Origin: Physcia stellaris
Taxonomy: Eukaryota; Ascomycota; Lecanoromycetes; Caliciales; Physciaceae
DNA length: 64,000 nt
Assembly (NCBI GenBank): GCA_018902385.1
Contig: JABSSW010000050.1
Coordinates: 305,120 to 369,119, forward strand
Direction: 5' to 3'
Part shown: piece after piece, positions 9,587-46,622 of the stretch
Layout: the number at the start of each line of letters is the position of its first letter
How positions within the stretch are numbered: the first letter of the stretch is position 1
The notes under the pieces: model-generated
The model's input: only the letters and a program-made list of their open reading frames with translations
Told to the model about the DNA's origin: nothing
Database searches by the model: none
Translations under genes and position numbers: made by a program

Positions 9587-9841
9587 TTCGAAAGTGGGAG
9601 GGTCAGAGAATTATTGAACGAATATAGCACTGATGAATGCGGAAATGATGGCTTTAAGAGTCCAGCTTTGCACGACGAGAAACAATTCCAGCGCCGAACT
9701 TGAGAAATCTTCGAAGGTCCATAGCTTTAACAATTTTATCTAACAGTGAGATGCGGAAGCCGGCATGATTACTTTATTTGATTTGGTTGTCATCAGCACG
9801 CAGCAAATCCACTCGGTCCTAGCTGTCTCCATCCTCCCATT

Positions 9842-17027: not shown

Positions 17028-20000
17028 TCACATCAATATCATCTGCTCTCCAAAACTCTTGACTGGCAAATCATCAATCATTCTCCCTATACCGCCGGTC
17101 CTATATCGATCCATCATACCCTCACTCAACTTCAAAGTCAACCTCCCGATCCTCTCCCAGCGGGCCTGTCCTGCACAGTCCACCTTCCTCAAGACCAGAA
17201 ACCGTGCAATCCCATCCCAAACGAATGGCACCGTGCTCGCGAAGATCAGCACTGTGGCCAAATCCCCACTTTTATGGCCTGCCGTGAGAGCTTGCTCGGT
17301 CATCGGTACAGAGAGGTGTATCTCGACAAGCTTGCCCATAAGTCGGCGCCACTCCCACTCATCTCTCGAACGCATCAGATACATATGCCTCAAGACCAAC
17401 GGTTCTCGAATGGTGAGCAGCCATTTCTTGCGGGGGTCTTGGGTGTTCGGCAGCGATACATTGCTTACCAACATCGTGAGATTGGTGTCGCCCTCGTCGT
17501 GAAGTATCATTTCCGCCGACCACTGTTTGTCCACGCTAGTGACCCAGGTCTCGCTGGTCCAGACGTCGAAATAATCGCTGTAGCTGGTGTCTGCCGAGTC
17601 GTCGTCCTCGTCGTTGGATGCATCTGTATCGCCCTCTATTTCAGCAAGCTCGTTACCGGAGTAGGTAGCCCTCCCCTGCCAACCCGCCCACGTCCAAGAT
17701 GGTAGGCATTTACGGCGCCGGCAGTCCGCGATATACATCGCGGCGCCAGGCTCTAGAGGCTGTGCAGCGTGCGTCCAGGCTGAGAGTGATAACGCGAAGG
17801 AAGATTGTAGCCTATGTGCATCTGCAAGTCAGCATCACGTCGTCAACACTGTTGGATATAAACATGTGTCTCCAAAACATAGCATAGCCGGTGAAAAAGA
17901 TTCCAGAGAATGCAAAAAGGGTGGGGAGACGTAGATCACTACCCACCCTGGTTTTCTATCTGCAAATGATCCAGTCCAGACTGGCAGACCTAAAAGCAGT
18001 GAGAGGCCTTTGTCCATGGAATAGTGTGCCGCGATACCCAAAAACGCATTCAGCGAGTCCGAATCCTCACTTAAATTCCGTGATGTATACGCGCGGATGT
18101 GATTAGCTAGTTGTTGGATCTGCTGCCCCAGTGAGGGGAGGGTGTGCGAGCTTGCATGGAAGCCGTATTGAAGGTGTCGAAGGCTATGCATGTCGCCTTC
18201 GAAGATTCCAGACAGCATATAGTTGGCCATGGGTGCACTGGGTTGAGGTTGAGTCATGTGAGGGTGGAGATCGGTACTTTCGTTCAAAGCCATGCCGCGG
18301 CACTCCCAATAGACCTGTTCTTCGGTGAAGACGAGGCGGCGGTGCGAGAGGATCGCTTCTTGGTAGGTCCAGCCGCGCGTCGACCATTGCGAGTCACGGA
18401 TGGCTAGTCGAGGCTCCCGCATCAGAGATACTAAGGTCATTTTACCTAGATTGCGATCAGGAGGGAGCGCTTTGGGTCGCGCGGAAGCACTTATGGTAGG
18501 GCGTTTGAGGATATCTAGATTAGACGCTGTTCGTATAGTCTCCTCAGCGTCGATCACTTGGCTATTTCTTCCTTTGGCTTGGCCTTGTAGATAAGGTATC
18601 ATATCCTTTAGAGGTATGTCCATTCTACGTGCTAGCTCTTTTGTCTTTTCCATGAACATTTTGAACGAGTTCGAATGGCCAAAGGAGTCGGCAAGTACTT
18701 GGAACACTTCCAAATGCTCCTGGGAAATATCGTACTCCTCCATCAGTTGTTGGTCCTCCAATAGCTCACCCATACCAGAATTCATATTTCCTCTGAGCCC
18801 GTGCCGGTAAGTGTCCAGCCACCCATGTGCATCTTCTGTTTCCAAAATGTATTCCTCGAGCGGAACACCGAAAAGCTCTGATCCTATGTCTGCATCCTTC
18901 CTGGTCGAGATGCTCGCGCTCGCGGCATTATCACCCTTGATGCGCTGGCTCAGCTCGACTTGCATTTGGGGTTTCCTCAGTTTTGTTGTTACGCCGGGCA
19001 AACCCGTCCGTGCGTCACCCGCCGCCCCAACAATCGTGAATTCGGCTCCCGCGTATATCATATCCATCTTGGAAACAAGATAGAGCTTCTCCTCCTCATT
19101 TTCCTGGTCAATACAGAGCCGATCTACCCAAAGGTACTGCTCCCCAAGCGTCCGGGTGACCTCTACCGCATCTACTATTGTCTGGGACAAAGCTTCCTCA
19201 CAGGTACCCCACACATAGCTCAAGGCAACATACTTTTCCGACCACGGTCGATCTACGACTCGTGGAGTGGCCGTCTTGCAGTCAACTACTCGGAAACCCT
19301 GCAGCGGTGCACCTACGAGCTTTCGAGGTCTACAGAAGCTGTGGCAATCACGGCATTGATCAAGCCAAGTCCGAATGACACCGAAGTCCGCATTGAGCTG
19401 CAGCTGTCGAGGCAAGACGATACGGTTCGGATCAATTCCGCGGGGCTGAGTCAAACGATAAATAGATCCATTCTTGGGGAGCTCCGTCTCAAGCCAGCGG
19501 AGAGGAATTCCGGTCTTCGGGATCCTCGGTAATTCAGGTACGACAGCCATGAAAACATTATGATCGAAAGTTTCCCAAGGTCCCCGTTTTATCCGCGCTT
19601 TGGAATCTCGTTGTGGCGCCTCGATCAGGTAGCTCTCGCTACTGCACATTGCAAGTAACTTATATGTGCCACTCGTCGCGTCTGAGATCATGGAGGCAAG
19701 GAACTTGCAAAGCTTGCAGTCACCCTTCCGGGACAAGCGATTGCCTAGCGATGAGACGTAGTAGAAGTCCTTTAAGTAAACAGGGCCATTGGCTTGACGG
19801 CATGATCTTAAAGTCCGCGGATTTGTCCCTCTCCGAGCGCCTTCGTACAGCGCGAAAGCGCTGGCAAAGCTCTGCTCTAGATCAAGCTTTGCGCACTCAT
19901 CGCAGAGTACATCGTGTCCTCCACGAGACTGACCTGTTGCTGGAAGCGCACAACGGAAAGTGAATGCATGTGCCGACGCAGCCGCTGTGGAAGGCTCAGA

Positions 20001-20066
20001 TGTAGAACTAGGTGACCAATCAGGGGCCGCCAAGAGCTTAGTAACTAGTGCGCACTCCAATGACAT
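17028..20066 (-). CDS. HET-domain (heterokaryon-incompatibility type) protein with a retrotransposon-derived first 22 codons
   Basis: HET-domain proteins take part in allorecognition cell death or related immune-like responses; the function of this one is unknown. The current start at 20066 lies inside the 5' LTR of the Copia element. Codons 1-22 (20066-20001) are antisense LTR sequence and host sequence begins at SEPSTAAAS. Features in order: CDEC (about 55-58) and CKLC (about 117-120), a zinc-like pair common in this family; HET core YVALSYVWG (about 279), LWVDRLCIDQ (about 312) and RGWTYQEAIL (about 564). Roughly 190 unusual residues separate the last two blocks. One intron with a GCTGAC branch and GCAG acceptor ends at 17822. 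The donor is best at 17878 (GT at 17877-17878), with 17863 as alternative. Exon 2 contains CLPSWTWAGW. Total about 993 residues. The frame is open throughout. Confidence 0.88.
19996..20000. repeat. Target-site duplication TCAGA, left copy
   Basis: TCAGA directly precedes the 5' LTR and recurs exactly at 46600-46604 directly after the 3' LTR. Five bases is the usual Copia duplication length. It falls inside the HET coding sequence (TCT GA on the minus strand). Confidence 0.93.
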
Positions 20067-20144
20067 TAAATGCTAGAAACCATGTAAATTAGCATTTCAT
20101 AGAACAACATGCAATCAATGACTTATTTATTCAGAAATTTTACA
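20001..20144 (+). repeat. Copia element 5' LTR (144 bp), unmutated
   Basis: It begins TGTA and ends TACA. The 3' LTR (46456-46599) aligns over the full 144 bp without gaps, with 22 differences by hand count, all with G or C here and A or T there. This copy retains normal CpT and CpC content although the internal sequence starting at 20145 is fully AT-converted. On the minus strand it supplies the first 22 codons of the HET gene. Confidence 0.92.
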
Positions 20145-20162
20145 ATTATGAGTTCGAATCAC
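20145..20162 (+). promoter_or_regulatory. Putative primer-binding site of the Copia element
   Basis: ATTATGAGTTCGAATCACG begins immediately after the 5' LTR end TACA. The GTTCGAATC core resembles a tRNA T-arm, so the primer may be a tRNA or a cleaved internal tRNA fragment as in several Copia elements. The near-identical ATTATGAATTCGA follows a candidate LTR in the second AT-rich block. The exact tRNA cannot be named. Confidence 0.45.
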
Positions 20163-21325
20163 GTTTAATTGTTGCATTCAATACGTGATTTATTTGATTA
20201 TCAATATTTTCAACATTCGATTGTTTCGACAAATTAACACGAAAAATCAAAACATCGCGAAAACATTTTTTTGTTTACATTTTTTTACAATCAACAACAA
20301 TCAAGAATTTTTTCGTTCGTTCAACACGATGACGAATACGAAACGAAAATTCAAATTGAATTTTTTCAAAAATTGAAACGCGTGATTTTCGATCGTACGA
20401 ATCAAAATCACAAAATATTCGATTTGAAATTTCATCGATTTATTCAACGATATTAAATCAATAAAAAAAATTGAATTTTTAAAGTTCAATTTTGACACAC
20501 AACAAAATGCGAATTTTAGCGAAAAACATGTTCGATACAAAATAACAACATCGAAATACAAAAAAAAATTTCAAAATTGAAAGAAGCAAAAAAATTTCAT
20601 GACAAAAATAATCGATTACATTTACGATACAACAACGATTACAAATTTCAATTTTATTCAAATCGTTGAAATTTATTCATAAATCGTTTTTCGCGTTTTC
20701 AAAACACGTTTTGCATTCATCGATTCGACTAAAAATTTGAAATTGAAACAAAAATACAATCGTTTGATCAAAAGTTTATTCAATCGTCAAAACATCGATG
20801 TTTGAATAAACGATTATTTGAAAATGTTGACATTCGTTAAACAAACGAAAATTGTTGAAATCATCGATAACAAACGAACGTATCGTGATTTTTTACACGT
20901 AATCGACAAAATCGCATTTATTTTCGTTGAAATACGATTATTTCAACTAAACATTGTAACGAATTACGAAATTCAATTTTTCATTTTTATCGAAATTTTT
21001 CGACATCACATGCGCATGAAAAAAATTCGAAAAAAAAAACGATATTCAATTTGACATTCGTTATTAACGAATGCAATTACACAAATTATCGAAATCATTT
21101 TGACATTTCGTCATTTCGAAATCAAAATCAGTTTTGAAATTTTTGCATTTGCGAAAAAAAACATTTTTACGACGATTGTTTTTATTTCAACGAAAAAATA
21201 CGTTCAAATGATTTCAAACTGAAATCAGAAATCGTGACTAAAATAGACGAAACGAAAAAAAATTCAAAAAAAAACAAATAAAACAAAATATCAAACGAAT
21301 TGACGAAAAACGTCAAAAAAAAACG
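20163..21325 (+). pseudogene. Copia gag region, degraded beyond recognition
   Basis: By position this should hold the leader and Gag of the Copia element. Open frames (20185-20376, 20818-21054) are rich in Phe, Lys, Ile and Asn and no CCHC knuckle can be made out. It is joined to 28782 in the pre-insertion state. Confidence 0.5.
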
Positions 21326-21330
21326 ATAAC
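21326..21330. repeat. Target-site duplication ATAAC of Gypsy A1
   Basis: ATAAC precedes the left LTR of Gypsy A1 and recurs at 28777-28781 just after the right LTR, an exact 5-bp duplication inside the Copia gag region. Confidence 0.9.
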
Positions 21331-21527
21331 TGTAAAAGTGTAAACATTACGTGATTAAAATGTGCGAATAATAATATGAATTGCTATAATAAATGTTAAA
21401 CACATAATAAAACTAATTGCTAAAAAAACAAAAAGAAATTCGTGAAATTTCGAATATATAAACACGAAATGCGACAATTAAATTCACAACGTTTTAACGT
21501 TCGTTTGATCGATTTCGTTTCATTACA
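21331..21527 (-). repeat. Gypsy A1 3' LTR (197 bp)
   Basis: Runs from TGTAAAAG to CATTACA and matches 28580-28776 over the same length. Differences between the two copies are C/T and G/A in both directions, so both were mutated independently. The A-rich run on the minus strand at 21528-21542 is the likely polypurine tract, placing the 3' end here. Confidence 0.9.
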
Positions 21528-24218
21528 ATTGTTTTTTTTTTTGAATGATCGATTTTTCGCGTCAATTATCAATGTTTTTATAGTATATCAGAAATGTATC
21601 GCAACAACGTTGTTTTGTAAATAATTTTGTGTTTTCGACGTATAATCTTGAAACACTGTAATTTAATAAATAAAAATAACAATAACAATGTAATGCAATT
21701 TCAAATATCGCGTTCGTGTTGTGAAATCGAATCGAAATGAATCGCGTCGTGTGTTGATGAATGTTTATTTCAATTTTTCAATTTTTTTTTTGAATTTTTT
21801 TTAACATTTTTATTTCATAACATAATAAATATTTCATTTGATTTGTTTTGTTTTTGCGATAACAACAATTATTGTAACAATGATGTCAACATGATATATC
21901 GTTGTTTGTACAGTTATCACATCGTTTTTGCAAATGATGATGTTGTCGCAATAATGTTTCAATGACGACGAAATTGATTTTCGAACGTCGACAATGCAAT
22001 ACGTGTGTTAACGATGCAATAAATCATAATTTCATTTTTTTTTCGTCGTTGTTTGTTACGTTTTGCAAAAACACGCAATTTGTTGTTTTTGTTGTAAATG
22101 TATTGTAAATAGCGATGACGTTGTTGACACGTGTTAAATTGATAAATTTTTTACGTTCGAATTGTTGAATACAATCAATACGACAAACATATATTCGAAT
22201 CGCGATATTCGCGATCGCATTGTAATCAAATTCAATAAACAAACACACACAATTGTTTCATATCAATTTGACGCGTAACAAAATTAATTTATATGTAATG
22301 TCAACGTTGCGTTCGAAAATTTCGTTATGATTCAAAACACGTTTGCGTTTTTTTTGACGAAAACAAACGAAACAAATGCGAATTTTGCAACAAAAATTTT
22401 CATTATTGTGAAAAAAACAATGTTTTTTACAAATTGCAAAACAACGTTTGCATTCTCGTTGTCAAAAATAACGACAATTTGAAATTGATTTTTCAACATT
22501 GAAAAAATAATAACATACGATTTTTGATGCATAACGTGATTAACATGAAACAAAATAATATAAAAAAAATTCGTTGTTTTTTATCAAGATTTTTTTTCGC
22601 AAAATTGCGTTGATTGTCACGTCAAAATTCGTTGAAAAAAAAAATCATTTTGTTTATCAATTTTTTTTTTCGTTTGTTTTTGTTTTTGTTCGAAAAAAAA
22701 TTCGAATTTTTTTTGTTTCGCTTTTCGATTTTCGCGTCGTTTTTTTTTTAATTTTTTTCGTTTTCGTTTCGTTTGCGTTTGTTTCGTTTGTTGATTTCGT
22801 TGCGTTTGCATCGTAAACAAATTCGTTTGTTGTCGCGTTTGTTTTTGCGTCGATTTCGATTCAACAAAATCGCGTAATTAATAATAAACAAAATTTTATT
22901 AAACGCGACAACAATTAACATGACGCAATCGAAATCGATTTGATTGTTATGATATGAATTTTGATTGATGAATTTATTGACGCGTTAATTTACATTTTCG
23001 TGTTTTTTTCGATTTAATGATCGCATGATTTTGTTTGTTGTTGTATTTTTTTTCGTTGAATGTTGAATTTTGTTTTTTGTTGTGACGTGTTGTTTTGTTG
23101 TTTGTTTGTTGTATGCAAATTATGCATGTAATCAAAAATAATTCACAATATCATTTTATTGTTTGTGTTTTTGCGTCGCAATTATTGTTATTTTTGTTTT
23201 TTGAATCGTTTTCGTTTTTTCAACTTTAAAAATTGACGTGTTTGTTTTTTTGTTGAAAATTTTTCGTTCGATTTCGTTTTGAATTTGTTTGTTTTTCGAC
23301 GTTTCGCAATTTTTTCAAATTTGCGTAATTCGCGCGCATTTTCGAATTTAACAATTGCGTTTTTCGCATTTTCGAAATGTTTCATTGATTTTCACGAATT
23401 TTCATATGACGATGAATTTATTTATACAATAAAATATTCAAATTGATTTTTTTTAATGCGTTTGTTTAACATTTGCGATATTTTTCATTTTTTTTCGATT
23501 TTCATTAATATTGATTGCGATTTTGAATTTGCGTCGTCACGATTATATCAAAATTCGAATAAAAAAACATGAAACACAAAATGTATGAATTCATATTGTT
23601 TAAATAAATCAAATTCGTAAATTTGCGTATTTATTTTTTTGACAATTTCGAAAAAATTCAATTGTTTATGATCAATTTTTTTTTGAAACGCAATGTGCGT
23701 ATATTTACATCACGTAACAACATTTTTTTTTTAAATTCAAAGTTTTTCATTATATGATTTTCATTATAATATTTGATTTGTTGTTCGAAAATCGTTTTTC
23801 ACAATTTCATTAAATGCGTTCGATTGTTTCGCAACGTTTTTGTTTTGTTTGTTGCAAATGTTGTTTTTTTTTTAAAATTGTTCACAAAATCGTTGTTTAA
23901 AATCGCAACGTATTCAAACAAAAATTTTTAAAAAATTTGATCAATGTTTGAATGTTTGTTATTATTGTAAACAAATTGTGTCATGAATAACAATTTTGAT
24001 CAATTATTTTGTTTGAAATTGCAATATACACGCAAATAATGTTCGAACACAACATTTTGTTTTTTTGTTTGTTCATTTGTTTGTGAATGAAAAACAATGT
24101 TAAATTTACGTTTCGTTTTCAAATTTCAACACAAAATAAATCAGAAATTGTTTGTGAAAAAAAATTTTCGATTCGAAATAATGTTACGCATCATTTCATG
24201 ACGACATACGAATTTTCG

Positions 24219-24455
24219 TCATAGCAAATTCGCAAAATTTATTGCGTTTAACGTTTTTGTGATTATTATGTACGTTGCGTATTTCGTCAATTTGTTTATC
24301 AATATTAATATCGAATTGCTAATTTTTTCAATGTAAAAATTTCTAACAAAAAACATATTTGTAACGAAATTCATGATAATTGTATCGAATGATTGTTTTT
24401 TTTTCGACGAAATTGTTATCATATCGTTATAAAATTTATGTCGATGAATTCGCAT
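24219..24455 (-). pseudogene. Gypsy A1 integrase core fragment
   Basis: Reads NSILILINKLTKYATYI, matching the conserved integrase core segment around the first catalytic Asp (family DSILVIVDRLTK). The catalytic Asp positions read Asn, so it would be inactive. This places integrase downstream of RT on the minus strand. Confidence 0.7.
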
Positions 24456-26029
24456 TCGTTAACAATTTGAACAAATGCGTACATAATTTGTTATTTTTTT
24501 AATTATGTCAAATCAAAAATATTTGCGTCGCACAACATTTTTGATTTTTGTTCGCGCAAAATGTTTAACATTTGAATCGTTATAATTCATACGAAAAATT
24601 TTTTGTTTTGTAACGAATTTTTCAAACACATAAATTGCGAAATCACGACGAAACAATTCATTTTTTTCAACATTTTATTTCGAAAATTCGTTTTGTTTGT
24701 TTGCGTATTTTTGACGTCATTGTTTCTCAACAACAAAAGCGTTTTTTTGTTGTAATTTGAATAATCACGCAATTATTGATTTTCGCAATTTCAAATAAAA
24801 TTTTTTCGATTTCATAATTTGATGAATTAAAAATCGAAATGTGACAATATTTAAAATTTTGCAAACACATTTATCGAGAACTTTTTCATTCGAAACAATA
24901 TTTCGAATATTTGTCGTAACAATGTTACGCAATCGCGTTGTCGATGTTGCAAATTTAATTAAAACAAACACATATTAATCGTTTTGCAAATCAAATTGAT
25001 AATTTTGATTGCGAAATTTGTTTCGCAAAATAAACAAAAATTTATCGTTGTTTTTGTCATTATCGTTCGATTTCATAAAATCAAATTTTTTCGACGACGT
25101 GTTCGCAAAATTCAATTTGTTTTTGCGATATTTTATATTGAAATCAAACGCAATTAATTTTTCAATTCAGCGAATCTGTTTCGCATTGAATTTTTTGATT
25201 GTTATAAAATATCGAAAATTGTTGTGATCAAAGATAACGCGAATAAAATACTTGTTATTTTGCAAATAATGTTTTCAATTTTTGAAATCAAACATTATCG
25301 CATATAGTTTTTTGTCATGCGTATTTCAATTAATTTTTGTTTTTTTGAATTTGTAATTGAAAAACGCAATGAAATGTCATTGATCGTTTTTGTTTTTTTG
25401 ATTGAACATATTATTTGTTTCGCGATTAAAAACATCAATTTTCATGCGTAATTTCGTTTTTCAATCATAATGCGTAAAAATAAAAACAATCGTGAATTTA
25501 ATTTTGAATTCGTTAAACGCAATTTTAATTTTTTTGTCATAACAAATGAAAAACGATTTTTTTTTCGCATCACGCGTCAAATTCGTAAATGATATTACGA
25601 TTTACGAAATTTTTTTAACGAAACGTTTTTAAAATTCAACAAAATTTAAAAAGATTATGATATTTTTCGCATTTTCGAATTCAAATCAATTAACGATTGC
25701 GTTTATACGCGAACGTTTCATTTGAATATCATTGCGTTCAACAACGAAATTTAAAAAATTGATTTTTTTTTGTTGAATTCGCATTTTTTCAATTTGACAT
25801 ACAAACGATAACGTAACAACGTTTTAAACATCAAACGAACATGTTTTCAATGTTATTGTTCATTTTCGAAATAAATCAACACATCATACAAATACATCAC
25901 GCAAAAAACGTCAATGTATGACTCTAATATTTCATTAACATAAAATTGAAAAATAACAAAAACGTTAACAAAATCGAAAAACATAATTTGATATTCGTAT
26001 TGTTTATAACGAATACGAAAAGCAATTTT

Positions 26030-26620
26030 TTATTCATTTTTTTGACGAATACGAATTTTATGATACGCATTTCGAATGTTTATTTTGATGAAATATTTAA
26101 CATTCGCGAAACGTTTTAACGTTTCAAACAACAACAACAATGAATAATTGTTTTTGATCGTGATTTCATTGAATTTTCGATAATTCACACATAAACGCAA
26201 ATTGTCATTTGATTTTTTGACAAACAACACAAATATTTTCGCAAATGCGTTGAAAAAACGAATTCATTTTTTCGTCAACGCGTTTTCGAAATAATTGCGT
26301 ATAACAATAAACTCGTTATGTGACATATTGTATATAAATTCAAAACGCGATTTTTTGTTTGATTGCAAATCAATAACATGTTCGATTTGATTATGCGTAT
26401 TCAAATTGTTCGACAACGTTTTGAAAAATATTTCGATTATTTTTTTGATAATATCAAAAATGTAATTATTGCGATTCATTTGTAACGCATCACAACGAAC
26501 AACATTTCGTTTTTGATATTGATAACTTTGTGTTAAAAAAAACATTTGATATGATATTGCGACATAAACACGATCGCGATTCGCAATGACAATCATAATT
26601 AAATCAACGAATTTTTTCAC
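26030..26620 (-). pseudogene. Gypsy A1 reverse transcriptase fragment
   Basis: The minus-strand frame 26230-26030 reads FVKKSNDNLRLCVNYRKFN and then KINIRNAYHKIRI, the conserved fingers and palm entry of Gypsy reverse transcriptases (family RxCVDYRxLN and DLxxAYHxIRI). Asp residues of the motif are replaced by Asn. The frame 26620-26264 is the linker upstream. The catalytic YxDD region further on cannot be recognised. Confidence 0.75.
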
Positions 26621-27941
26621 AAAACAAAAATTGATTGAAATTTGTTTGAATTTTTTATAATTATCATCACGATATAATCAGCAACGATCATATCAACGAA
26701 TGTCAAAATCGACAACATTCAATCATGAATATTCAAAAATCATGTCGTATTTATGCATGTCAATCGTTCAAAAATCAACATTTTGTTTTTTTACATGTTT
26801 TTCATTATTTCGTGTCATGATATGCACGTTTTCATGATGTTTATACATTTGAATCACACGATCGTCAACAGTTTTTACATGTTGTTTAACAATTTTTTTG
26901 AATTCAAACAATTGCATTTGTTTGACAAAAATTTGTGATATAAAATTCGTTTCGATATCAAAATCAATCAAACAAATAATTGTTGTATTGTTTGTTTGCG
27001 TAACAAATGTTTTGATTAATAACGTGATTATCAAAACACGAAATTTATTTCGTTTTAAATTTATTTTCAATGTTTTAACGACAAACATCAAATTCGTTCT
27101 TTTTTCGACGATTGATTTTGATTTTGATTGCGTTTTTTTTGAATTTGCGCATAATTTTTACACACAAAATCATTTGTTATGTGATTCGACTTGTGATATG
27201 AAAAACATATACGTTTTTCGAATTTTGAAAATGCGAAATTGTGATTTTGATTTCGATTTTTTTTTTTTTTTGTTAATTTTGTTGCGATTTCGAAAATTGA
27301 TTTTGATTGTTTTTTTGAACGTTGTCAAATTCAACAGATTTATTACGCGAACTTTTTTTGTTTTTATTTTTGTCGTTGTCATTGTCATTTTCGTGATTTT
27401 TCTGATCATTTTCATTATTTTGTTTTATTTTCGTAACATTGTTCGACGATTTATTTAACGTATTATCGTCGACAAACAATTGTTTCGCAATCAACAAATT
27501 GACGATTAATTTGAAATAAAAATCGATTTCATGATTTCGCATTTTTACACATTTGATGCGAATGAAAACATGAATTTTGAACAACAATTTTTTTTGTCGT
27601 TTCTCGTTCGAAACGTAACGTTTCAATTTGTTTCACAATTTGATTAAATATTGATTGAACGCAACAATGTTTTGTCGAAACAATTGTTTGACATTTTCAA
27701 TGACAATAATTGTATTCATAACACGAATCATCGAATTGTTAAATAACGTCAACAAATAATTTTTATATTGTTTTTATGTTTGTTTTTCAAATTGAACATC
27801 AACATAATTACGTCATTGATTTTTTTTTGTCGTTATCAAAAACGACGTCGATCAATTTGTTTTCATTTTTTTTGTTTGAAAATTAACAAAATCGAAAACG
27901 ATATATTTTTCGCAATCACGCAATCAATTTTTCAAATTGTT

Positions 27942-28652
27942 TCAATTTTCACATTTTTGCGTGTTTGAAATTTTTGATCGTGTGATTCGTTTTTTGATAT
28001 GCGAAAATGAATTTTCATATTGATTATCGTTGTTGCGACGACAACGACGATTTCGATCACGTTTCGTTTTCGTTTTGATCAAAAATATTTTAAAATCAAT
28101 GAATTTTGATTCAATTTTTAACATTTTGATACGCATTTTCATTTGTTTGAAAATCACGTTTAAATCGACAACAACAAACACAACGACATCGTTATTTGAC
28201 GACAACGAAACAAAATTATTTTTTCGTTGTGTTTCATTTTGATTAAAATGCGTAACAAATGTTGAATTGAAAAATTGATCAACATTTGAAATCAAAAATT
28301 CGAAAATTGAAATATGTTTAATTGAAACGTCGACATTATCAAAATCGACAAAATCATTGTTTTTATCAGAATTTTCAAATTGAACATCATCAAACAATTC
28401 AATAATTCGATTGATAAAAAAAAACATAAAAAAATTGCTTGATAAAATGATGTTTAATTGTGATACAATCGATACGATCGCACGATCACGAATTTGCGAA
28501 CGAATTTCGCGACGACGAAACGCATTTGTTGAATTGAACATTTTTAATCGAACAATTCTTGATGTAAAGCAATTAAAATTGTAAAAATGTAAACATTGCG
28601 TGATTAAAATGTGCGAATAATAATATAAATTGTTATGATAAATGCTAAACAC
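27942..28652 (-). pseudogene. Gypsy A1 Gag-region frame
   Basis: The longest frame in A1 (236 codons), located directly after its 5' LTR at 28580-28776, so positionally Gag. It contains a Phe-rich N-terminal half and a basic C-terminal end. No CCHC knuckle is visible here. Assignment is by position only. Confidence 0.5.
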
Positions 28653-28776
28653 ATAATAAAACTAATTGTTAAAAAAACAGAAAGAAATTCGTGAAATTTC
28701 GAATATATAAACACGAAATGCGACAATTAAATTTACAACGTCTTAGCGTTCGCTTGATCGATTTCGTTTCATTACA
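28580..28776 (-). repeat. Gypsy A1 5' LTR (197 bp)
   Basis: Partner of 21331-21527, same length, TG...CA ends, followed on the plus strand by the second ATAAC duplication at 28777-28781. Confidence 0.9.
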
Positions 28777-28892
28777 ATAACAAAAACACAAAAATCGAAA
28801 TAAAATTTTTCGTCGTCATTCACGTCAATGTCATAAAATCGTTTACAAGCGATTCGTTTTCGTTAAATTATTTTTTTCGTTCGTCGTGAATT

Positions 28893-35618: not shown

Positions 35619-36520
35619 ATTTTTTTTATTATGATTCGAAATTTTGATTTTTCATGTTTTTATTTGAAAATTTCAAATTCGAATGACGATCATTTTTCGA
35701 TTTCGATTTCGTCGAAAAATTTCGAAAATAATTCAAATTCGTCGAAATGATTGACGATCATTGATTGAAATTGTTGTTTCGAAAAATGTTTATCGAATTA
35801 ACGATTTTGAACAAAATTTATTTTCATCAAATTCATCGTCATTTTGATTAAATTTAAAACAAAAAAATGTCGATGATATGTTGTTCGAAATTTTGATTAT
35901 TCGATCAAAAACATACACGTTCAATTGTGTAATTTCGTTAAACAATAATCGATTTTTCAAATTGATTTCGAAAAAAAAATGATTTGAAAAAAAACTTGAA
36001 AAAATCATGATTGTGAATTGAAATCGAATAATTGTTGAAACAGAAAAAAAAATGAACAAAACAATGATTTAAATAAATTTTGATGATTGAATTTCATTTA
36101 AAATGACAAATTCGATGTGATGTTGAATGAAATTTTTAAATGTTTGTTTATGATGAAACAAATGAATGTTGAATAAAAATGTTTGTTTGTTGATGTTTTT
36201 TTTTATTTAATAATTTTTTGATTTTCAAACACGAATGTTTCGTCAAAAAATAAAAAGAAAAAATTTGTTGTATTGTGAATCGAGATTATCGCGTGAATTC
36301 GTTTGTTTTGAATATTTTTTAAAACAAAACAAACGAATTTATTATGTTTCGTTTTTTTCAATTCACAACGAGTTTATTATGTTTCGTTGTTTTCGTTGAA
36401 TGATCAAAATCAAATTGAATCTATTATGTTTTATTCGTTATCAATTTAATTGTAAAAATTTTGTTTATTTGAATGTTCGCGTATCATAAACGAACATAAA
36501 AAAAAATGATTTCGATATAA

Positions 36521-36737
36521 TGTGAAATGTTATGCAAAAATATAATATTATTACATAATTACACGAAAATATCGAAATGAAAAACAAATACATGAAATTT
36601 GTAAAAACATATGTAAAAAATTTGATTTTTTGAATGCGTCAAGTCGAATTTCGATTTTAACATTCGATGTGATAAAATAACGATGTTAATTCGATGTTAA
36701 TTTTGTTAAATGTTGAATTCGATGTACGCTCGTCACC
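36521..36737 (-). repeat. Gypsy A2 5' LTR (about 217 bp)
   Basis: Same length as 29153-29369. The minus-strand start reads GTGACGAGC, lacking the initial T of its partner (TGTAACGAGC). It directly abuts the truncated B LTR at 36738. Confidence 0.85.
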
Positions 36738-36830
36738 AATTTCAACATTTTGTATTTATTTTGTTTTTGCAGACTTATTGTTTTCGTTTAACTAGTCAAT
36801 CAATACAGTCATACAAACACGACTCATGAT
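36738..36830 (+). repeat. Truncated 5' LTR of Gypsy B (last 93 bp only)
   Basis: CAATTTCAACATTTTG...CATGAT matches the second part of the B 3' LTR from 43171 onward. The first 134 bases present in the 3' LTR (43037-43170) are missing here and A2 begins instead. Confidence 0.85.
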
Positions 36831-37114
36831 ATTACAATAAGTTTTCAATTTTTATCGCTCGTCGTGATACGCGAACGTTCAAAAATAAAATTTCAAATCG
36901 ATCAAGTTTTTCGTGAAAAACAAACGACGAAAAATTTTCTTGACGAGACAAACGACGAAAATCGTGTAGTTACAAATCGAATTTACACGCAAACGACGAA
37001 GTTTTCGACGATAAAAAACGACGAAACGACGACGATTTTTTTTTTTTTTTACTTTTTCGAATTCAAAATGAAAATCATCATGAAACAACTTCATTCAATT
37101 CATTTCGTCAAAAT

Positions 37115-38413
37115 TTGAATATCGACGAGATACAAAAGAACGTTGAGCAGATGTTGAACGAAATTCACGAAATCGATGAAAAATTCACGATTCGTTACAA
37201 ATTTCGTCAATTTTTTTTTATTTCAAATGTTGTGTCGAATCAAGACGACGATGTCACGCATTTTTTGAACATAAAAATCGTTCGTCAATTGAAATATTGA
37301 GTTCAACATCATTTCAACGATTTTTTGAACGTGTTCAATGATTTACGCATCGATCGAAACAAATATCTGATCGCTTTAAAGAATTTTCACGAGTTCGTCA
37401 AATTGTTCAAAATTCAAAAAAAAAATTTATTCGATATCGATAATATTTTTGAGCAAATACGCGACAAACTTAAAACGTTCGAAAAAGAAAAAAAGCGAGT
37501 GATGAATCAACTCATTGACAAACGTATTGAATATGACGATTTGATCAAATTGAATGAAATTCGTCGCTTTGAACGTGTTTTTAATTTCGATTCAAGTGAA
37601 AATTCAAGCAATATCGACGATGACGAAAAAGAGTTCGTTGACGACGACTCGATCGTTACAAATTTTGTCAAATTTTCGAAAAAAAAACGCACGAACAAAC
37701 ATTCGAATCTCGATAAATTCACGAACGATGTGAATTTTGATTGATTCACGTGAAAAATCAACGTTCACGATAAATTCACGATCAACAACGATTGATACGA
37801 AATTGTTCGATTCATGATCACGACAATAATTGACTGAACTGAAAAAGAAACAATCAAGCATATTCAATCTCGTCGATATAACAATTTGAATTATTTCGAA
37901 AATGAAATAATGATGATCAATTTTTTCGAAAACATTTATGAAGATTCAAATCATCAACGCAACGTACGTCGAAAATATCGAAATTTGATCATGTTCGACA
38001 TTCAGAATTTTCAATTTTTTTATTCGAATTTTCATCGTTTGAGTATTCAAATCAATTTCGATCAATTCGTTTTGATGAAAAATTTGATTGACAAACTTAT
38101 CATGTCGTTGAAACAAGTTTTGAACAATTCGTTTCGTCATCATTTCTTTTTTTTCGCGTGAAAAAATGACATTCAGCAAGTGTATAACGATTTGATCAGC
38201 ATTCGCAAAAAAAAAATTCGAATTCGAATTCAAAAGTCAATTTTCGTGATTTTCAAATCGACGTTTGTTGTCTCGATTGCAACATCGTTCGTCAAATCAA
38301 TCACATCGACGTTTTTTATCAAGTTCAAAAACGATCATAAACATGATTCGATCATCGATCAATTGATTGTCACGAACAAATGTTTCACGTGTGAAAAATT
38401 CGATCACATTTGA
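37115..38413 (+). pseudogene. Gypsy B Gag
   Basis: Frames 37115-37300, 37325-37744, 37886-38161 and 38180-38413 run in order with short breaks. The part around 37500-37744 is acidic, then basic. The last frame ends with TNKCFTCEKFDH, the start of a CCHC zinc knuckle (CxxCxxxxH) that marks the nucleocapsid end of Gag. Confidence 0.75.
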
Positions 38414-38517
38414 AAGTTTTGTTTTAACGTCAATAAATTTCAGAAACGTCAATGACATAAATTACAAATGTATCAATTGAATTTCGATATTGATTCGAGC
38501 GAGTTTGACTCGAAAAA

Positions 38518-38916
38518 TTGACGATTCACGTCAAAGACGCGATTGATGAATGTTTAAAAATTTTCTTTATTCACGATGATAGTATGTTTGATTTTTTCAT
38601 TAAGCGATTTTTAGTTATCATTTGTACGTTATCATTCAACGATAATAAACATAAATTAGAAATTTTAATAAACATTGATGCAATTGATTATGCGTTCATT
38701 GATAGAAAAATCGCGCAATTTGTATGCAACATGTTGAACATGAAACTCGTATTTTTATTGAAATCGAAATCATTGATTGAATTCGACGATCGTCATGCTT
38801 TTTTTATAATTCACGCGATATATTTCAAGTTGACGATAGAATTACATTTCGAATTGATCGTCTCTTTGTTAATCATTGATTTTGATAATCACTCGATAAT
38901 TTTAAAAAAGTCGTGA
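38518..38916 (+). pseudogene. Gypsy B protease
   Basis: Contains LINIDAIDYAFIDRKIAQ, corresponding to the retroviral-type aspartic protease site (family LIDSGATDNFI), with the catalytic Asp replaced by Asn in the LINID context. Followed by SLIEFDDRHA, as in related Gypsy proteases. Inactive by sequence. Confidence 0.75.
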
Positions 38917-39405
38917 ATGAACAAACATGAAATTATATTGAACATGATTTATGATAAATTGATTTTTAAATCGTTCAAATGCAATCATCACGACAACATA
39001 TTCAGTCAAGCGATGCAAACTCGTCGTTTAGAAATTTTCAAATCAAATCGTCGATGAAATGTATTTAATTGACGTCGCGATGCAAAATTATCGCAAAAAG
39101 ATAATACAGAACACATAACGACGATAAAATTTCGATATATCATTTTATCACGTTTCAAAATCAAATCATTATTTTTTGTTGTTGAAAACGAATTCGATGT
39201 ATTCGATTCGAAATGTTTCGAATGTTCAATTCATTCAAAAGTCGAAAACGACGACGAATCGTCAACAATCGAATCAAATAATTCAGAAATTGATATCACG
39301 ACGATTACGAAAACGACGTTCGTCAAAAAAAAGAAATTGAAAAATCAACGCAATAAACGATGAAAAACGAAAAAACAACAATCAGAATTTTCGTTATTTT
39401 CAAAA

Positions 39406-40413
39406 TTGAATTTTGACGATTCGATGAATATCGCAATGATTGATGCAATTTTTTTTTGCTTGTTGATCGATGTCAAAAATCGAAAGCAAAAAATTCAATG
39501 TTTTTTCATTACGATCAATCAAATCGATTTCGCATTCAAAACATTACAAACGAATTTTGAATCGTTGAAAATTGTCGTCATGATCAAAAAGATTTTGAAA
39601 CATGAACAAATCAAGTCGATATTTGAACGCATAATGAAAAAAATGTTAAAATATTTTCATCATTTATCAAAAGTATTCGATTTTCAAAAAATTATCAAGT
39701 TACTTTTTCATAAATCATACGATCATAAAATCGAGTTTTTGAACGATAGCAGTTTTTTATTTCGCAATCGAATGTATTCTTTATTCGAATTCAAATTTAG
39801 AAAATTCAAGAAATATTTGAAAAAAAATTTGCAAAAGAAATTTATCGTATCGAATCAAACGACATATGTTTCATTTGTTTTATTTGCGATCAAATTTAAT
39901 GATCAATTACGTTTGTGTGTGAATTATCGTCGATTCAATCATATCACGAAACGTAATCGATATTTTATTTTTTTGATTGAGAAAACTTTGATCAAAGTTC
40001 AAGATTGCAAATATTTGATCAAACTGAATATCATATCAGTTTTCAATAAATTTCGAATGAGCGAAAAAAGTGAGAAATTTATCACGTTCGTCATTTTTAT
40101 GAAATCGTACAAATATCGAATATTATTTTTTGAATTAATCAACGATTTTGCAAGTTGACAACATTACATGAATGATTTTTTGTTCAATTTTTTGAACGAA
40201 TTCTGTCAAATTTATTTGAATGACATATTCATTTACAGCAAATTCAAAAAGAAACACATCGTGCACGTTCGAACGATATTGAAGAAACTCAAAAAAATCG
40301 ATTTACAAATAGATATTGAGAAATGCGAATTTTTCAAGAAAAAAATGATTTTTTTAAACGTTATATTTTCGATAAATGATTTTCGCATGAATTCAAAAAA
40401 ATACAAATCATAA
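39406..40413 (+). pseudogene. Gypsy B reverse transcriptase
   Basis: Two frames separated by a TGA at 40156-40158. The first has FAIKFNDQLRLCVNYRRFN, KLNIISVFNKFRM and LFFELINDFAS. The second has MNDFLFNFLNEFCQIYLNDIFIYSKFKKKH, where the catalytic box reads LND in place of LDD. Length and order agree with Gypsy RT. The catalytic change and the stop mean it is inactive. Confidence 0.88.
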
Positions 40414-40597
40414 TTGATTGAGCACGTTTTATCAATCTCAAAAAGTACAAATTTTCGTGAATTTCGTTAATTTTTATCGACGTTTCATTCGTGATTTCTC
40501 GAAAAAGATTAAAATTTTCATTCGAATGATCAAAAAACTCGTAAAATTCGAATGAATTACGAAAGCAAAAAAAATTTTCAATTTATTCAAAAAAACG

Positions 40598-41909
40598 ATG
40601 ATCGAAATTTTCATATTTCGTCATTACGATAAAATCAAACAAATCATTTTAAAAATCGATTTTTCAAATTACGTCAATGCAGAAATGTTATCGCAATACG
40701 ATGACGAAAAAGTTTTGCATTTCGTTGTTTTTTACAATCGAAACATGATTTCAATCGAATGCAATTACGAAATCTATGACAAAAAGCTATTGATCATCAT
40801 TCGCTGTTTGAAGTATTGACGTTCAAAATTCGAAAACATTGACGAATCGATTAAGATTTTTATCGATCACAAGAATTTGAAAATTTTCATGATTTCGAAA
40901 AAACTGATTTTTCGTCAAATTCGTTGAACAGAAATTTTATCGAAATTCAATATCGTCATTCAGTTTCAGTCAAAAACTCAAAACGTTAAAACAGATGTTT
41001 TGACTCGTATGTCAAATTCTCGATTCAAAAACGATAGCGACGAACGACATCAATATAGAAAACAAATGTTGTTCATTTCGAAACGACTCGAAATTCATGT
41101 TGTCGAATTTGACGAATCAATTTACGAACGAATTTTCGTCGTCAACAAAGCAAACGACGATTGCAAAACATATCGTGAAACGTTCAATCAAAATTTCATT
41201 TTCGTGAATGAAATCAATTTACGCGATTTTCAAGAAAAAAACGATATTTTATATTACAAAAATCGATTATGAATGTTCGTCGATGCTTTTTTGTTTGTTG
41301 ATTTTCTCAGAGAAATTCATGAATTTTCAACGTCGAGTCATTTTGAATTTAATCGCATGAAGAATTTTTTACGTCGTGATTATTATTGATTCAACATGCG
41401 CAAAATCGTTCGTCGATACGTACGTAATTGTCACGATTGTCAACGAATTAAAATTTTCAAAGATCGCAAAAATGATTTATTCATTTTTTTGACTATATCT
41501 TTGCAACGATGAATCGATATATCGATGAATTTCATTACGAAACTGTTTGACGTTCACGATCATAACGTCATTTGCACGATAATCGACAAATTTAGCAAAA
41601 AACGTCATTATGCATTTTGCACAACAAAAAACGAGAACACGAATGTCGAAATCACAACGAAAATATTCATTCAATACGTTTTTCGCATTCACGATCTATT
41701 TTTTTTTATAACGTTTGATCGAAATTTTCAGTTCGTGTCATTCGTATGACAAGTTTTTTGCAAAATTTTCGACATCAAATGTAAATTTTTCACGATTTTT
41801 CATTCAGAAATTGATGATCAAATCGAGAAAATCAATCAGAACATCGAGAAACAATTGCGACAATATTGCAATTACATGCAAAACGATTGAAACGTTTGAT
41901 TATTCATGA
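40598..41909 (+). pseudogene. Gypsy B RNase H and integrase
   Basis: RNase H is seen at 40598-40980 (KIDFSNYVNAEMLSQ, then VVFYNRNM). Integrase shows the zinc-binding end NCHDCQRIK (the two Cys codons at 41429-41431 and 41438-41440) and the core from 41525 (FDVHDHNVICTIIDKFSKKRHY). TGA codons at 41387-41389 and 41510-41512 interrupt it at conserved Trp positions. Confidence 0.8.
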
Positions 41910-42340
41910 TTGAATTTGCAAACAACAACGCGATTTTTGCATCAATTGAATTATCATCGTTTTTCGTCAACAAAAGCTTTCATTTTCGTATGAGTTTTTC
42001 ATCAAATTTTATCTCGTACGTTATTACAAAAAAGCGATTGTTGATCGTCAAAACGAAAAATATCACAAACATCATGCAAAACATTTTCAATTACGTGCGA
42101 AATCACGTCGACGTAATTCAAAAACGCATGACAATTCAAATCAACAAACATCGTAAAATTGTGAAATACGTCGAAAAAAATTACGTTTTTTTGAATCGAC
42201 GAAACATCAAAATCGCTAAATCATTTGACAAATTCGATGACAAAAAACTGAATTCGTTCAAAATGCTAAAACGTCGAGACAACTTTTATCAGTTCGAATT
42301 ATTTGAAACAATGCGAATTTACGATGTGTTTCATTGCTGA
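41906..42340 (+). pseudogene. Gypsy B integrase C-terminal domain
   Basis: Frame of 144 codons continuing from the integrase core: IEFANNNAIFASIELSSFFV (family AEFAYNN...STGxSPF), then a coiled basic region (VDVIQKRMTIQINKHRK) and VEKNYVFLNRRNI (family GDxVxLxxRNI). This is the standard end of Gypsy Pol. A chromodomain may follow but is not recognisable. Confidence 0.75.
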
Positions 42341-43036
42341 CTTTTTCGCAAAACTTTTTGTGATTTTTTCGAAAATCAAATCAACGAATCATTCGATTTT
42401 GTTATAGTCAACGAGAATCTCGAATGAAAAATGAACGATATTTTGAAATTTCGATATCATTACAATCGTTTTCAATATCGTGTCAATTGATCAGACTGAT
42501 CACATGATCGAACGTGATATTACGTCGATAACGATGAATTCGATAACGTTCGCGACGTGATAGAAAATTTTCATCGAAATCATTTCATCGTCGCAAATTC
42601 AAAATCGTTTAAATCAAATATTTTCGTCGTCGATATTCAAGATTTTTTTGCAAATCGTCGTCGTTTTCGAAAAAAAATCGTCGTTTTGATTTTTATTGAA
42701 ATTACATTCGATTAAAGTTTGAAAATCTCAAATTCGATGCATTCATTTGAGTTTTCATTTTTTCGATTTTTTTTCGATTTTCAGTTTCTATTATCGTTTC
42801 GATGTTGTTTACAATCAAAATTTACATCGCATAAAGAATTGAATCGTGTCAAAAACATTTTCAAAAATTGTTGTCAGATTTTATCGAGCGTTGAAACGAT
42901 AACAAAGCATCAAAAAATAAAATGATGATCGTGAAATTTTTGAATTTTGCAAACATTCAAATCAGTCAACAAGATTTTCAAAATTTCGAAACAATAACGA
43001 ATCGTCGAAACGACGTTCGCGAAAAAAGAAAAATAA

Positions 43037-43262
43037 TGTTACGAGCATGCTTGACAGATAAATTTGACAAATAGATAGTTAATATGATATGTGATCGAGC
43101 AGCGAATTATGTTTTAATTCTACGTCGAAATTAACGTGATTTGAGATTTGACGTCGCATATTGCTTGCAATTTCAACATTTTGTATCTATTTGTTTCTGC
43201 AGATTTATTGTTTTCGTCTAACTAGACAATCAATACAGTCATACAAGCACGATTCATGATAT
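43037..43262 (+). repeat. Gypsy B 3' LTR (about 226 bp)
   Basis: Starts TGTTACGAGCATG after the purine run 43020-43036. It matches 36738-36830 in its second part and the reverse complement of 60915-61139 along its whole length. The three copies agree up to CATGATAT, after which they diverge. Confidence 0.85.
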
Positions 43263-43270
43263 AAATTTGA

Positions 43271-46200
43271 AAAAATGAACGTTTTCGCAATCATCGTGCG
43301 ACAAAAATTTATTTTGAAATGATATCAATTTCTCGTTTATGCAAATAATGACGTTATACAACATTTACAAAAAACAATTGAAAAAATGAAATTCATCAAC
43401 AAGAATAAAATGTCATTAATTAACAAATGCGAAAAATGTGTTTTTTTCAAAGCACATCGAATTGTATTCAAATTTTTTGTAAAATCAAAAATTTCGAACA
43501 AATCGTTTTATCGTATTACATACGATTTCATCGATATGACAACGATTTTGAACAAACACGAATAAATATCACACGTGACATGTTTCGAAACAAATTTTCA
43601 CATGATATACACGCATGAAAACAAAAAACAAATCACGAAAATATTTATTCGAATTATTCATATTATCGAAATCAAATACAACGACAAAATAATATTTGTA
43701 CGTTTTGACGACGAACGCGCGTTAAACATTGTTTGAAATAATTATTGTGTATTCAAAAACATTACACATGAATTTTCGATCGTTGATATTTTAACACAAA
43801 ACGATCACAACGAACGATTAAATGACATATTGTTGATCAAATCACGAACAATGAAATTCGAAACAAGTTTATTTGTTTATTTATGATCGTGAATCAATGA
43901 AATCGCTGATTACATCATGAATCGTATATTTTTCAAAAAACATGAATGAAAAACATCGTTCGAAATAATTATCGACAAAAAATCGAATTTTGTTCACATC
44001 GTTCAATATGAAACAAAAATATATTTTTTGAATAAAAATATTTCGAAAAAAAAAATGAAAATCAAAACACACATCGATTTTTTTGTAAATTATGATAACA
44101 TCAACATTTTTCTGATTTGAATTTTTAATCAACGAAAAATTATACGTACACGTGATGTCACATTCAACGAAAATTCACGTTATCGTTTTAACGAAATAAA
44201 TTTAATTCAATTCGTTAACGAATTTTTTTTGATTAACGATACGTTTGACATATCGCAAAACGATTTCACGAAAATAATGATTATCGAATCAAACAACGAC
44301 GAAAATGTATGAAAATTAACATTTACAGAATTTATTATCGATCGCGATGCAAAAAAATTTCACAAATAAACGATTGAAAACGATTTTGAATCAAAATATT
44401 TATTTTCATTTGTTTCATTTTCGTCAAAAAATGAAAACACGTCAAATACGTTTGATTTTTCGTATTTTTCGTTATTTGTCGTTACAGAAATTTTTTTTTC
44501 ATTTGTCGTTGCAAAAACAATAAAGAAATTATTTTCATTTGCATCGTCGTTGAAAAAGAAAAAATCGAAACATTGAACGAAAACAACGATTGACGAAATC
44601 AATATTCAATTTGAAAAATTCATTCGCATTCGCAAATCAAATTCGTTTCGAAATTTCAATCATTTCATCGTTTTAAAGAATGCGTTCGTAAAAAAAATGC
44701 GTTCATTCTATAAAGCATTTATGATTTCAATGATAAAAAAAAATCGCATCGTGACGATTTTTTCGCCGAATCACGTTTTTATTATTAGATGTTCAAACAT
44801 TTTGAAATCGTCGATTTTTTGCGAATCATTGACGTGAAAATCAAAACATTACAATCAAAACAAATTTGAAAAAAAATTTCATGAAATCATGTTAAACAAA
44901 CAAAAAAAAATTCTATATTTATCATATGAATATTCAAATACAAATTCGACAACGAGAAATATTTGATAAAACACAAAATTCGATTGTGTGTTCGAAAAAA
45001 TTTTCAACAAATCGAGCAAAATGTTTACGCAATTACATTAATTATTAAAATTTTTCGAATATTAATAATTATAATTACAATTTTCGATTTGAACATTCGT
45101 CAATATGATTCAATCAATGCATTCGCAAATAACGATATCGACGAATTCATTTATTGCAAATCGTTTGACGATTGAAAAAAAAAAACAATGTATTATTTTT
45201 TTTATTGAAAACATTATACGAATTGAAACAATTTTCAACATTATGATATCGACATTTGTCGATTATTTTTAACAATTTAAATTTAAAACAAATGTTCGAT
45301 ATTGAATGTTTATTCATGAACGATTACATAATTGTTTTTTTTTTCGTGAATGATATAATCGTCATGTATTATTCACAATATTTCAAACAAATCGACGTTT
45401 TCGAAAAAAAACTTTTTAAAACATATGAAATGAAAAACATCGACGAAATCGAATGATTTTTTAATATTCGCATTACACGCAATAAAAAACAACAAACAAC
45501 GTCGTTTTGTCAAAATAATTATATCGACAAATTCATCAACAAATTCAACATTGATATGATCAAAAAAAAATCAAAATCATTTATATTCATTCATATTTCG
45601 ATGATAAAAAATGAAAATAATGTTATTTTTCAAAAAATTCATATGTATCAACAAAAAATCGATTCAATCAATTTCGTTGCAACAACAATTCGATCAAACG
45701 TGATCGTTGCAATTTCGTTATTATCAAAATATTTTACGAATTCATTTAAACATCATGCGAAACAAACGACTCGAACATTAAAATATTTGACAAATATCAA
45801 GTATTACGTCATTGTTTACAAAAATCAAACAAATCAAATAATTATTATTTTTTTAAATTCGTCAAATGCGTCATTCGCAAACGATTTAAACATTCGTCAA
45901 AATTTTAATGAATATTGTTTCATGTTTTTCGACGATTTTATCGATTGAAAAATCACAAAACAAAAAACAATCATCATCAATTTTATCGAAATCAAATTGT
46001 TGATTATGTCAATGACGATCAACATCAAAATGTAATGAAATTGTTTTTTTGAATCAATACAAATGAATATGAATAAATTTACGTACATTCAATACGATAA
46101 TCGTCAAATTATACGAACGTTTATTATGTCAAAAATCATATTCATCATTAAATTACGTCATGTCGATATACATCGTCATTAATTACGTCAAAAAATGCAA

Positions 46201-46455
46201 AAAAACACGATCAACATTCAATGAATTTTTACAACGAATATTTTGATCGATAATTTCATTAAAACTTTATCATTTCAAAAACAAAAAACATTCGTGAAAT
46301 TGATTGATTTAAAATTTATTTCGATATCAAAATCGAAAAAAAACAACAAATTCGATCAATCAAAAATCGAATAAATCGCATCATGAATCACATCAAAAAA
46401 TGAATAAAACATCAAAAATAAAACGAAATATCAAATATTTTCTTTTAAAAAAAGA
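43271..46455 (+). pseudogene. Copia integrase, reverse transcriptase and RNase H
   Basis: Continuation of the Copia polyprotein after the Gypsy pair. GAG-pre-integrase and integrase start with MKFINKNKMSLINKCEKCVFFKAHRIV (a CxxC zinc end) and FYRITYDFIDM. RT at 44963-45175 reads KIRLCVRKN...IITIFDLNIRQYDSINAFANNDIDEFIY (family KARLCVRGx, DVKTAFLNGxLDExIY). The catalytic box at about 45340 reads FVNDIIV (family YVDD). RNase H at 45556-45948 reads SLLSKYFTNS and LNSSNASFANDLNIR. Stops are mainly TGA, for example at 43320-43322. Confidence 0.87.
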
Positions 46456-46599
46456 TGTAAAATTAAATAATCAATCAAAAATCGTCAAGAATTTAGTAAT
46501 TAATGCGCATTTCAATGACATTAAATGTTAAAAATCATGTAAATTAGCATTTCATAGAACAACATGCAATCAATGATTTATTTATTCAGAAATTTTACA
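46456..46599 (+). repeat. Copia element 3' LTR (144 bp), AT-converted
   Basis: Aligns without gaps to 20001-20144. All 22 differences are transitions to A or T in this copy. It is preceded by a short purine run (46447-46455) serving as polypurine tract and followed by TSD TCAGA. Confidence 0.92.
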
Positions 46600-46604
46600 T
46601 CAGA
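46600..46604. repeat. Target-site duplication TCAGA, right copy
   Basis: Exact copy of 19996-20000. The AT-converted composition stops abruptly at this point. Confidence 0.93.
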
Positions 46605-46622
46605 GCTAGTCTCAATCGACAT
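46600..46622 (-). pseudogene. Stranded native start of the HET gene (first six codons)
   Basis: On the minus strand an ATG at 46622-46620 is followed by codons for M-S-I-E-T-S and then TCTGA, the duplicated target. Joining this to the left flank of the Copia at 20000 continues in frame as S-E-P-S-T-A, the host part of the HET protein. The native 5' end of the HET gene is therefore here, cut off by the retrotransposon. Which ATG was really used is inferred. Confidence 0.8.

Follow-up and report, generated by a model that had tools for sequence, protein, structure and literature searches.

A HET gene interrupted by a Copia retrotransposon

We analysed a stretch of 64,000 nucleotides (hereafter the window) from the lichen fungus Physcia stellaris (contig JABSSW010000050.1, positions 305,120 to 369,119), in which a HET-domain gene on the minus strand has been cut from its start codon by a Copia retrotransposon. 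The HET-domain family includes genes for self/non-self recognition. What remains of exon 1 (17947-20000) holds the domain (PF06985; Pfam E-value 5.2e-27, 95.4 bits against a cut-off of 22.5). It is followed by an intron of 135 nucleotides (17812-17946) and by exon 2 (17028-17811), which runs to the natural stop and whose translation has a C-terminus like that of its homologues (LPVKSFG...). The intron was placed at 17946-17812 because the K-P-G/L-Q junction of the homologues fixes the splice; it has a GTGGGT donor, an ACATAG acceptor and a CTGAC branch motif. A preliminary description of the locus, made from the sequence, read an open frame of 993 residues here, which is wrong: the frame 17028-20066 contains two stops (17835-17837 and 17829-17831), both in the intron. 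The spliced host coding part comprises 945 codons and a stop, and the predicted protein has 951 amino acids before the insertion (6 + 945) and 967 if started from an ATG in the long terminal repeat (LTR) of the element (22 + 945).

The element lies directly after codon 6 of the gene. Its 5′ LTR (20001-20144) and 3′ LTR (46456-46599), both on the plus strand, are 144 bp each and have the form TG...CA. They are bordered by the target site duplication (TSD) TCAGA, at 19996-20000 on the HET side and at 46600-46604 on the far side. Beyond the latter, the minus strand carries a six-codon stub with the original ATG (46605-46622, M-S-I-E-T-S), so that the displaced ATG (46622-46620) is now 26.6 kb from the gene body. 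Read across the element, stub and body give MSIETS|SEPSTAA in frame, with the body resuming at 20000; the empty site rebuilt with one copy of the TSD reads MSIETSSEPSTAAASAHAFTF. An LTR pair and TSD inside the HET coding sequence, and a stub that joins S-E-P-S-T at 20000 in frame, had both been described before, and reading both ends confirms them.

An uninterrupted relative, P0001 (736 amino acids, from an ENA contig), is 94% identical over 99% of the query and has no insertion. It starts MSIEASSEHSTAASSAHAFTF. Its N-terminus, MSIEASSEHSTAA, shares five of its first six residues with the stub, and its sequence runs on through the insertion point; the stub is therefore very probably the true start. 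That P0001 begins M-S-I-E-A-S-S-E-H-S-T-A-A agrees with the start that had been predicted for a HET protein from an empty site. The search that found it scored only the 8000 candidates with the most shared words, and long homologues also occur in Monosporascus, Cucurbitaria, Usnea and others. In the own assembly (43.97 Mb, 147 contigs) there is no second close HET copy, the next of 15 matches being 47% identical over about 80 residues, and the HET DNA has no match in a plasmid collection. The gene shares PF06985 and long homologues with the HET-domain genes of Pezizomycotina; unlike them, it has had its start taken away by a transposon. In an alignment of 21 sequences the N-terminal tail is not conserved within the family, so that the protein should be little affected by lacking six residues of it. 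The loss of the promoter, in contrast, should have an effect. The domain by itself makes allorecognition only a candidate role.

The 26.6 kb between stub and body do not form a single element. Only three segments of this stretch belong to the outer Copia, all on the plus strand: a first internal segment (20145-21330), which aligns to L029 and other copies of the family, a second (28774-29153), likewise aligned to family copies, and a third (43261-46455). Five copies in the genome (L029-L033) align to just three pieces of the window (about 20001-21330, 28774-29153 and 43261-46599), which puts the outer element at 5.05 kb. The window has no counterpart to some 80 bases that L029 carries between the second and third segments. 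The remainder consists of nested elements: A (21328-28778, terminal repeats 21328-21529 and 28577-28778), B (29132-36766, terminal repeats at about 29132-29398 and 36500-36766) and C (36737-43262, terminal repeats at about 36737-36832 and 43168-43262), the last being in part an inverted relative of B. None of the five long frames in the nested block has a Pfam match.

The third segment contains an RVT_2 match (45181-45555, E-value 1.4e-8) with two TGA stops. The match identifies the outer element as Copia, and its position on the plus strand gives the direction. The 3′ LTR would then be the one on the right and the element would point away from HET, which fits the purine-rich tract that precedes 46456. 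In L031, a copy of normal GC content, RVT_2 (1088-1300, E-value 7.6e-31) is preceded by SH3_retrovirus (771-841); gag_pre-integrs scores only under its threshold, and no integrase core was matched. The LTR pair, the 5-bp TSD, RVT_2 and the SH3-like integrase-side domain before the reverse transcriptase are shared with the Ty1/copia elements (Pseudoviridae) of ascomycetes, from which the element shows no essential difference; its LTRs are short (125-144 bp). Fungal Copia clades include GalEa and FunCo1 (PMC5445492). In a search of the own genome that scored 40 places of 74 candidates, several LTR pairs are spaced about 5.0 kb apart and others 2, 11 or 19 kb.

The TSD, the LTR structure and the match of the stub to its homologue are more than chance would give, and the earlier view that a Copia element beheaded the HET gene is strongly supported by RVT_2 and by P0001. 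The beheading is real and well supported, and is a new case of an already known kind. In the literature searched we found nothing on HET genes together with transposable element insertion; a search combining het gene, vegetative incompatibility and transposon gave a match at title level only.

C-to-T mutation at CpC and CpT in the repeats

More surprising than the beheading is a process resembling repeat-induced point mutation (RIP) and directed at CpC and CpT, whose footprint fills the element. Between the LTRs (20145-46455) there are 2 CC and 0 GG, against 1192 CC and 1026 GG in 1-19995. Per kb, CC and GG together number 0-0.3 in six element stretches and 121-123 in two adjoining gene stretches. 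C-to-T change is thus confined to repeated DNA, as in RIP. Relative to the GC-normal copies L031, L032 and L033, the window element has C changed to T at 96-97% of CpC, 90-91% of CpT, 13-14% of CpA and 8-9% of CpG, and the base preceding the mutated C has little effect. L029 and L030 compared with L031 give a similar picture (CpC 93-96%, CpT 81-90%, CpA 11-12%, CpG 6-8%). L032 and L033 show C>T at 2-7% in every context, without such a bias (the highest value is CpC in L033). As this Copia family still has members of normal GC content in the genome, the process has not reached every copy.

The LTR pair of the window carries the same footprint. The two repeats are identical at 122 of 144 positions, and the 22 differences, read from left to right, are 11 G>A and 11 C>T only; the changed sites are 9/9 of CpC, 12/17 of CpT, 1/23 of CpA and 0/4 of CpG. 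In 70 low-GC tiles of 500 bp, drawn from 21 of 46 loci some of which overlap each other, observed/expected CpC is 0.07, and CpC plus CpT reaches CpA in none. Within the outer element 30 of 1532 compared codons have turned into stops, 23 of them through TGG>TGA; of 137 listed RVT_2 matches from the whole genome, three by our count have a TAG. From the context rates, the depletion in the tiles and the TGG>TGA stops, we conclude that the footprint is C>T at CpY (Y, C or T). The signature is also seen at 59000-64000 of the window, and observed/expected CpG is 3.5 in the first AT block.

How does this compare with RIP in other fungi? Both act on C in repeats, on both strands, with a sharp border to genes. 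CpA is the RIP preference in most fungi. Here CpA is not the preferred target, and the order is CpC>=CpT>>CpA>CpG, unlike that of Neurospora crassa (CpA>CpT>CpG>CpC) or of Trichoderma reesei, where CpA and CpG lead and CpC comes last (both as given in PMC5496416). In another study (PMC4352252), Magnaporthe oryzae and Botrytis cinerea T4 have CpT in the lead alongside CpA, and B. cinerea B05.10 and Sclerotinia have it in second place. A CpT-led signature is given for Tad1 in N. crassa (RIPCAL), and a 2025 survey describes CpA preference as common to RIP-like defences (PMC12543289). A large contribution of CpT has thus been seen before; what appears new is that CpC is hit most and CpA nearly spared. 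CpC as the leading target was not found in the literature searched, which consisted of partial texts without figures and few subscription papers.

The RIP indices in common use are built on CpA, and blocks mutated at CpC and CpT therefore read as unmutated. In eight 500-bp tiles lying wholly between the LTR starts (20501-22000 and 44001-46500), TA/AT is 0.33-0.57 and (CA+TG)/(AC+GT) is 1.08-1.68, which amounts to no RIP signal; the signal came from the dinucleotide counts and the pairwise comparisons. Candidate counterparts of the RIP methylases, one of them DIM-2-like, are present: DNA_methylase has matches at three loci (L040, L041, L042). The product of L041 matches PDB 9bap (E-value 2e-181), which we take to be DIM-2, and L042 is presumably RID-like. 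The L042 frame is identical at 665 of 673 positions to P. stellaris G7Y79_00005g016670, in accord with the assignment to this species; the mismatches are confined to its final residues, at which it apparently runs out of the exon. The DNA_methylase match at L042/L043 is in two pieces.

We consider it likely that this lichen fungus runs a RIP-like defence of inverted specificity, with CpY near saturation, CpA and CpG largely spared and no trace visible to CpA indices, and that the beheaded HET gene adjoining the block may survive by way of an LTR-coded start. If so, CpY-directed defences may be overlooked by the usual indices in other fungi, and the signature would offer a handle on how RID and DIM-2 enzymes select the base after the cytosine.

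The two edges of the block differ. The 5′ LTR is still rich in CpC and CpT (26 sites, both strands), and the 3′ LTR has 5 such sites in its whole length, all in its last 117 bases. The LTRs of L029 and L030, two copies with mutated interiors, have 19-29 sites, and LTR matches other than the 3′ LTR of the window have 14-33, against which that LTR is an outlier. The count covered copies chosen for their resemblance to the 5′ LTR, which favours little-mutated LTRs, and none of those fetched with the 3′ LTR. Selection keeping the 5′ LTR unmutated was rejected as unnecessary, given the sites kept by the LTRs of L029 and L030 despite their mutated interiors. Outside the 3′ LTR, successive 50-bp pieces of 46600-46749 hold 8, 3 and 8 CpC and CpT sites, where the normal mean is 12, and the former HET 5′ flank (46623-46760, minus strand) is depleted near the LTR. 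There is no such depletion outside the 5′ LTR, as if the process had leaked on one side; low values recur further right as well (46950-47049, 47300-47399).

A possible start in the 5′ LTR

As described before, the HET frame stays open beyond 20000 into the LTR, where 22 codons (20001-20066, minus strand) lead back to an ATG at 20066-20064. No other ATG in frame precedes host residue M104. LTRs are known to serve as alternative starts or promoters of host genes. This locus resembles such cases in that an open gene body is bordered on its 5′ side by an LTR with an in-frame ATG; it differs from them in that the ATG is antisense and at chance level. The proposal that the LTR supplies a new start holds in that the ATG frame is present, but not in the sense of exceeding chance. 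Of 27 distinct LTR copies (those fetched that retain LTR position 1 and resemble the 5′ LTR, that of the window included), 21 have the same open 22-codon antisense frame, which makes 22/81 over all three phases, and 664 of 2511 phases (26%) in random 144-mers of the window with GC 0.33-0.41 are open with an ATG. The antisense ATG being a default of the LTR family, and the host phase being met at about the chance rate, the start is a family trait combined with a one-in-three or one-in-four accident. It is real but ordinary, and that HET is expressed from the LTR side is no more than a possibility.

The history that we favour, as a whole at close to an even chance, begins with events that can be read from the sequence. 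The 5.05-kb Copia inserted after HET codon 6 in the opposite orientation (as judged by RVT_2 on the plus strand), with its 5′ LTR abutting the gene body and the ATG and presumed promoter shifted to its far side. Later elements entered it, expanding it to 26.6 kb, and the repeat-confined C>T process mutated the block, halting at the edge of the 5′ LTR and the gene. The antisense ATG with its 22 open codons happened to fit the host phase. Beyond this, we suggest that the body may have stayed in use for some time, its first six residues replaced by 22 coded in the LTR, with transcription perhaps beginning in or near the 5′ LTR. Nature has set up here a trial of whether a gene body can outlive a transposon that takes away its start. 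Axenic culture of P. stellaris has been published (PMC7513301).

A second haplotype and the fate of the gene body

Part of the evidence for continued use comes from a second contig, C21, of which positions 1-22845 match 41211-63996 of the window at 95.7-96.0% identity. We take it as a second haplotype because the overlap dovetails with the end of the window's contig at 64000 and because both 12001-16000 (left flank) and C21:40001-42000 are single-copy. A segmental duplication of the right half was rejected on the dovetail and the single-copy flanks, and because the duplicated genic DNA is unmutated. The published P. stellaris assembly, which resembles the one used here but is not equal to it, was made with Nanopore and Illumina reads from an axenic culture grown from ascospores (PMC7513301); if more than one spore founded the culture, two haplotypes would be expected.

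The insertion is shared. C21 carries an LTR at the same site, its first 141 bases identical and one base missing just before the end, with the TSD likewise, and the right end of nested element C is present there too. The C21 stub differs in sequence and has 20 nucleotides rather than the 18 of the window, so that the old start is out of phase in C21; the stretch 46615-46760 is 89% identical between the haplotypes. A shared insertion with an out-of-phase stub was counted for continued use. Genic flanks differ at 443/11164 positions (3.97%), with 24 indels, 20 of them not multiples of three, and the AT-rich element part differs at 92/5326 (1.73%); in 1-kb steps along 41211-63996 the divergence ranges from 0.3% to 8.0%. 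In a neutral simulation on half the flank divergence, with the insertion assumed older than the haplotype split, the body escaped stops with a probability of 0.113, and stops and frameshifts together with one of 0.008. On that assumption neutrality makes an open body unlikely, which weakly favours continued use.

In the comparison with P0001 there are 40 differing exon-1 positions up to residue 685, and polarity by the nearest outgroup makes 17 of them derived in the window and 12 in P0001 and leaves 11 unassigned; in conserved columns alone the counts are 3 and 4. Five differences fall in residues 1-104 and 35 in 105-685, so the N-terminal part is not faster, and its near-invariant residues in the 21-sequence alignment are retained. 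The body shows no clear sign of faster decay, with low power, and its intactness is weak, conditional support for use from the LTR side.

Several observations weigh against such use. LTR promoters usually fire into their own element, and transcription of the element should accordingly run away from HET. Upstream of the LTR ATG, the antisense LTR has four out-of-frame ATGs (open reading frames of 14, 3, 9 and 5 amino acids), and the base at -3 is T. Under a second polarity rule, which asks whether at least one of the 19 further homologues has the residue, 13 changes are derived in the window and 8 in P0001, which may indicate a mild lean to faster change in the window lineage. The simulation uses the flank mean although 1-kb values span 0.7% to 8.0%. 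Divergence also steps up at the LTR edge, from 1 site in the last ~790 element bases to 26 in the first 400 outside. The C21 element may have been homogenised, by assembly polishing or by conversion, either of which would weaken dating by C21 and leaves it shaky. If the insertion happened recently, no selection would be needed for the frame to be open.

Alternatively, the beheaded gene may be silent: a young pseudogene, its promoter and start lost, beside a 26-kb mutated and probably heterochromatic block, with a frame that has had too little time to decay. We regard this as a serious possibility, though somewhat short of an even one. The ATG is 26.6 kb away, the LTR start is at chance level and preceded by out-of-frame ATGs, one polarity rule gives 13 against 8 lineage changes, and LTR differences that are only C>T and G>A are compatible with a young insertion. 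Yet the nested insertions and near-saturated mutation need time, the insertion is common to C21, and the frame, had it evolved neutrally since the split, would be open with a simulated probability of 0.008. It is unlikely that HET is used from somewhere other than the LTR ATG, be it a short 5′ exon newly gained, a start codon that is not ATG or Met104 within the body. The first four antisense ATGs being out of frame would suit such a start, as would AG dinucleotides in the antisense LTR (seen by eye), which are possible acceptors; a start at M104 would lose the conserved CDEC...CKLC part, which is not diverging faster. An assembly artefact joining the element to HET is very improbable: two haplotypes are indeed mixed here, the contig end overlapping C21 at 96%, but the TSD is perfect, the LTR ends are correct, the stub is frame-exact and matches P0001, and a right junction of the same kind is present in the second contig.

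The neighbouring genes of the window include the C-terminal part of a ketoacyl synthase (869-1789), a frame for a major facilitator superfamily (MFS) transporter (5582-6307), an FAD-binding frame (10480-11136) and an M35-type metallopeptidase frame (12428-13243) on one side of the HET gene, and a second MFS frame (55233-55991) on the other.

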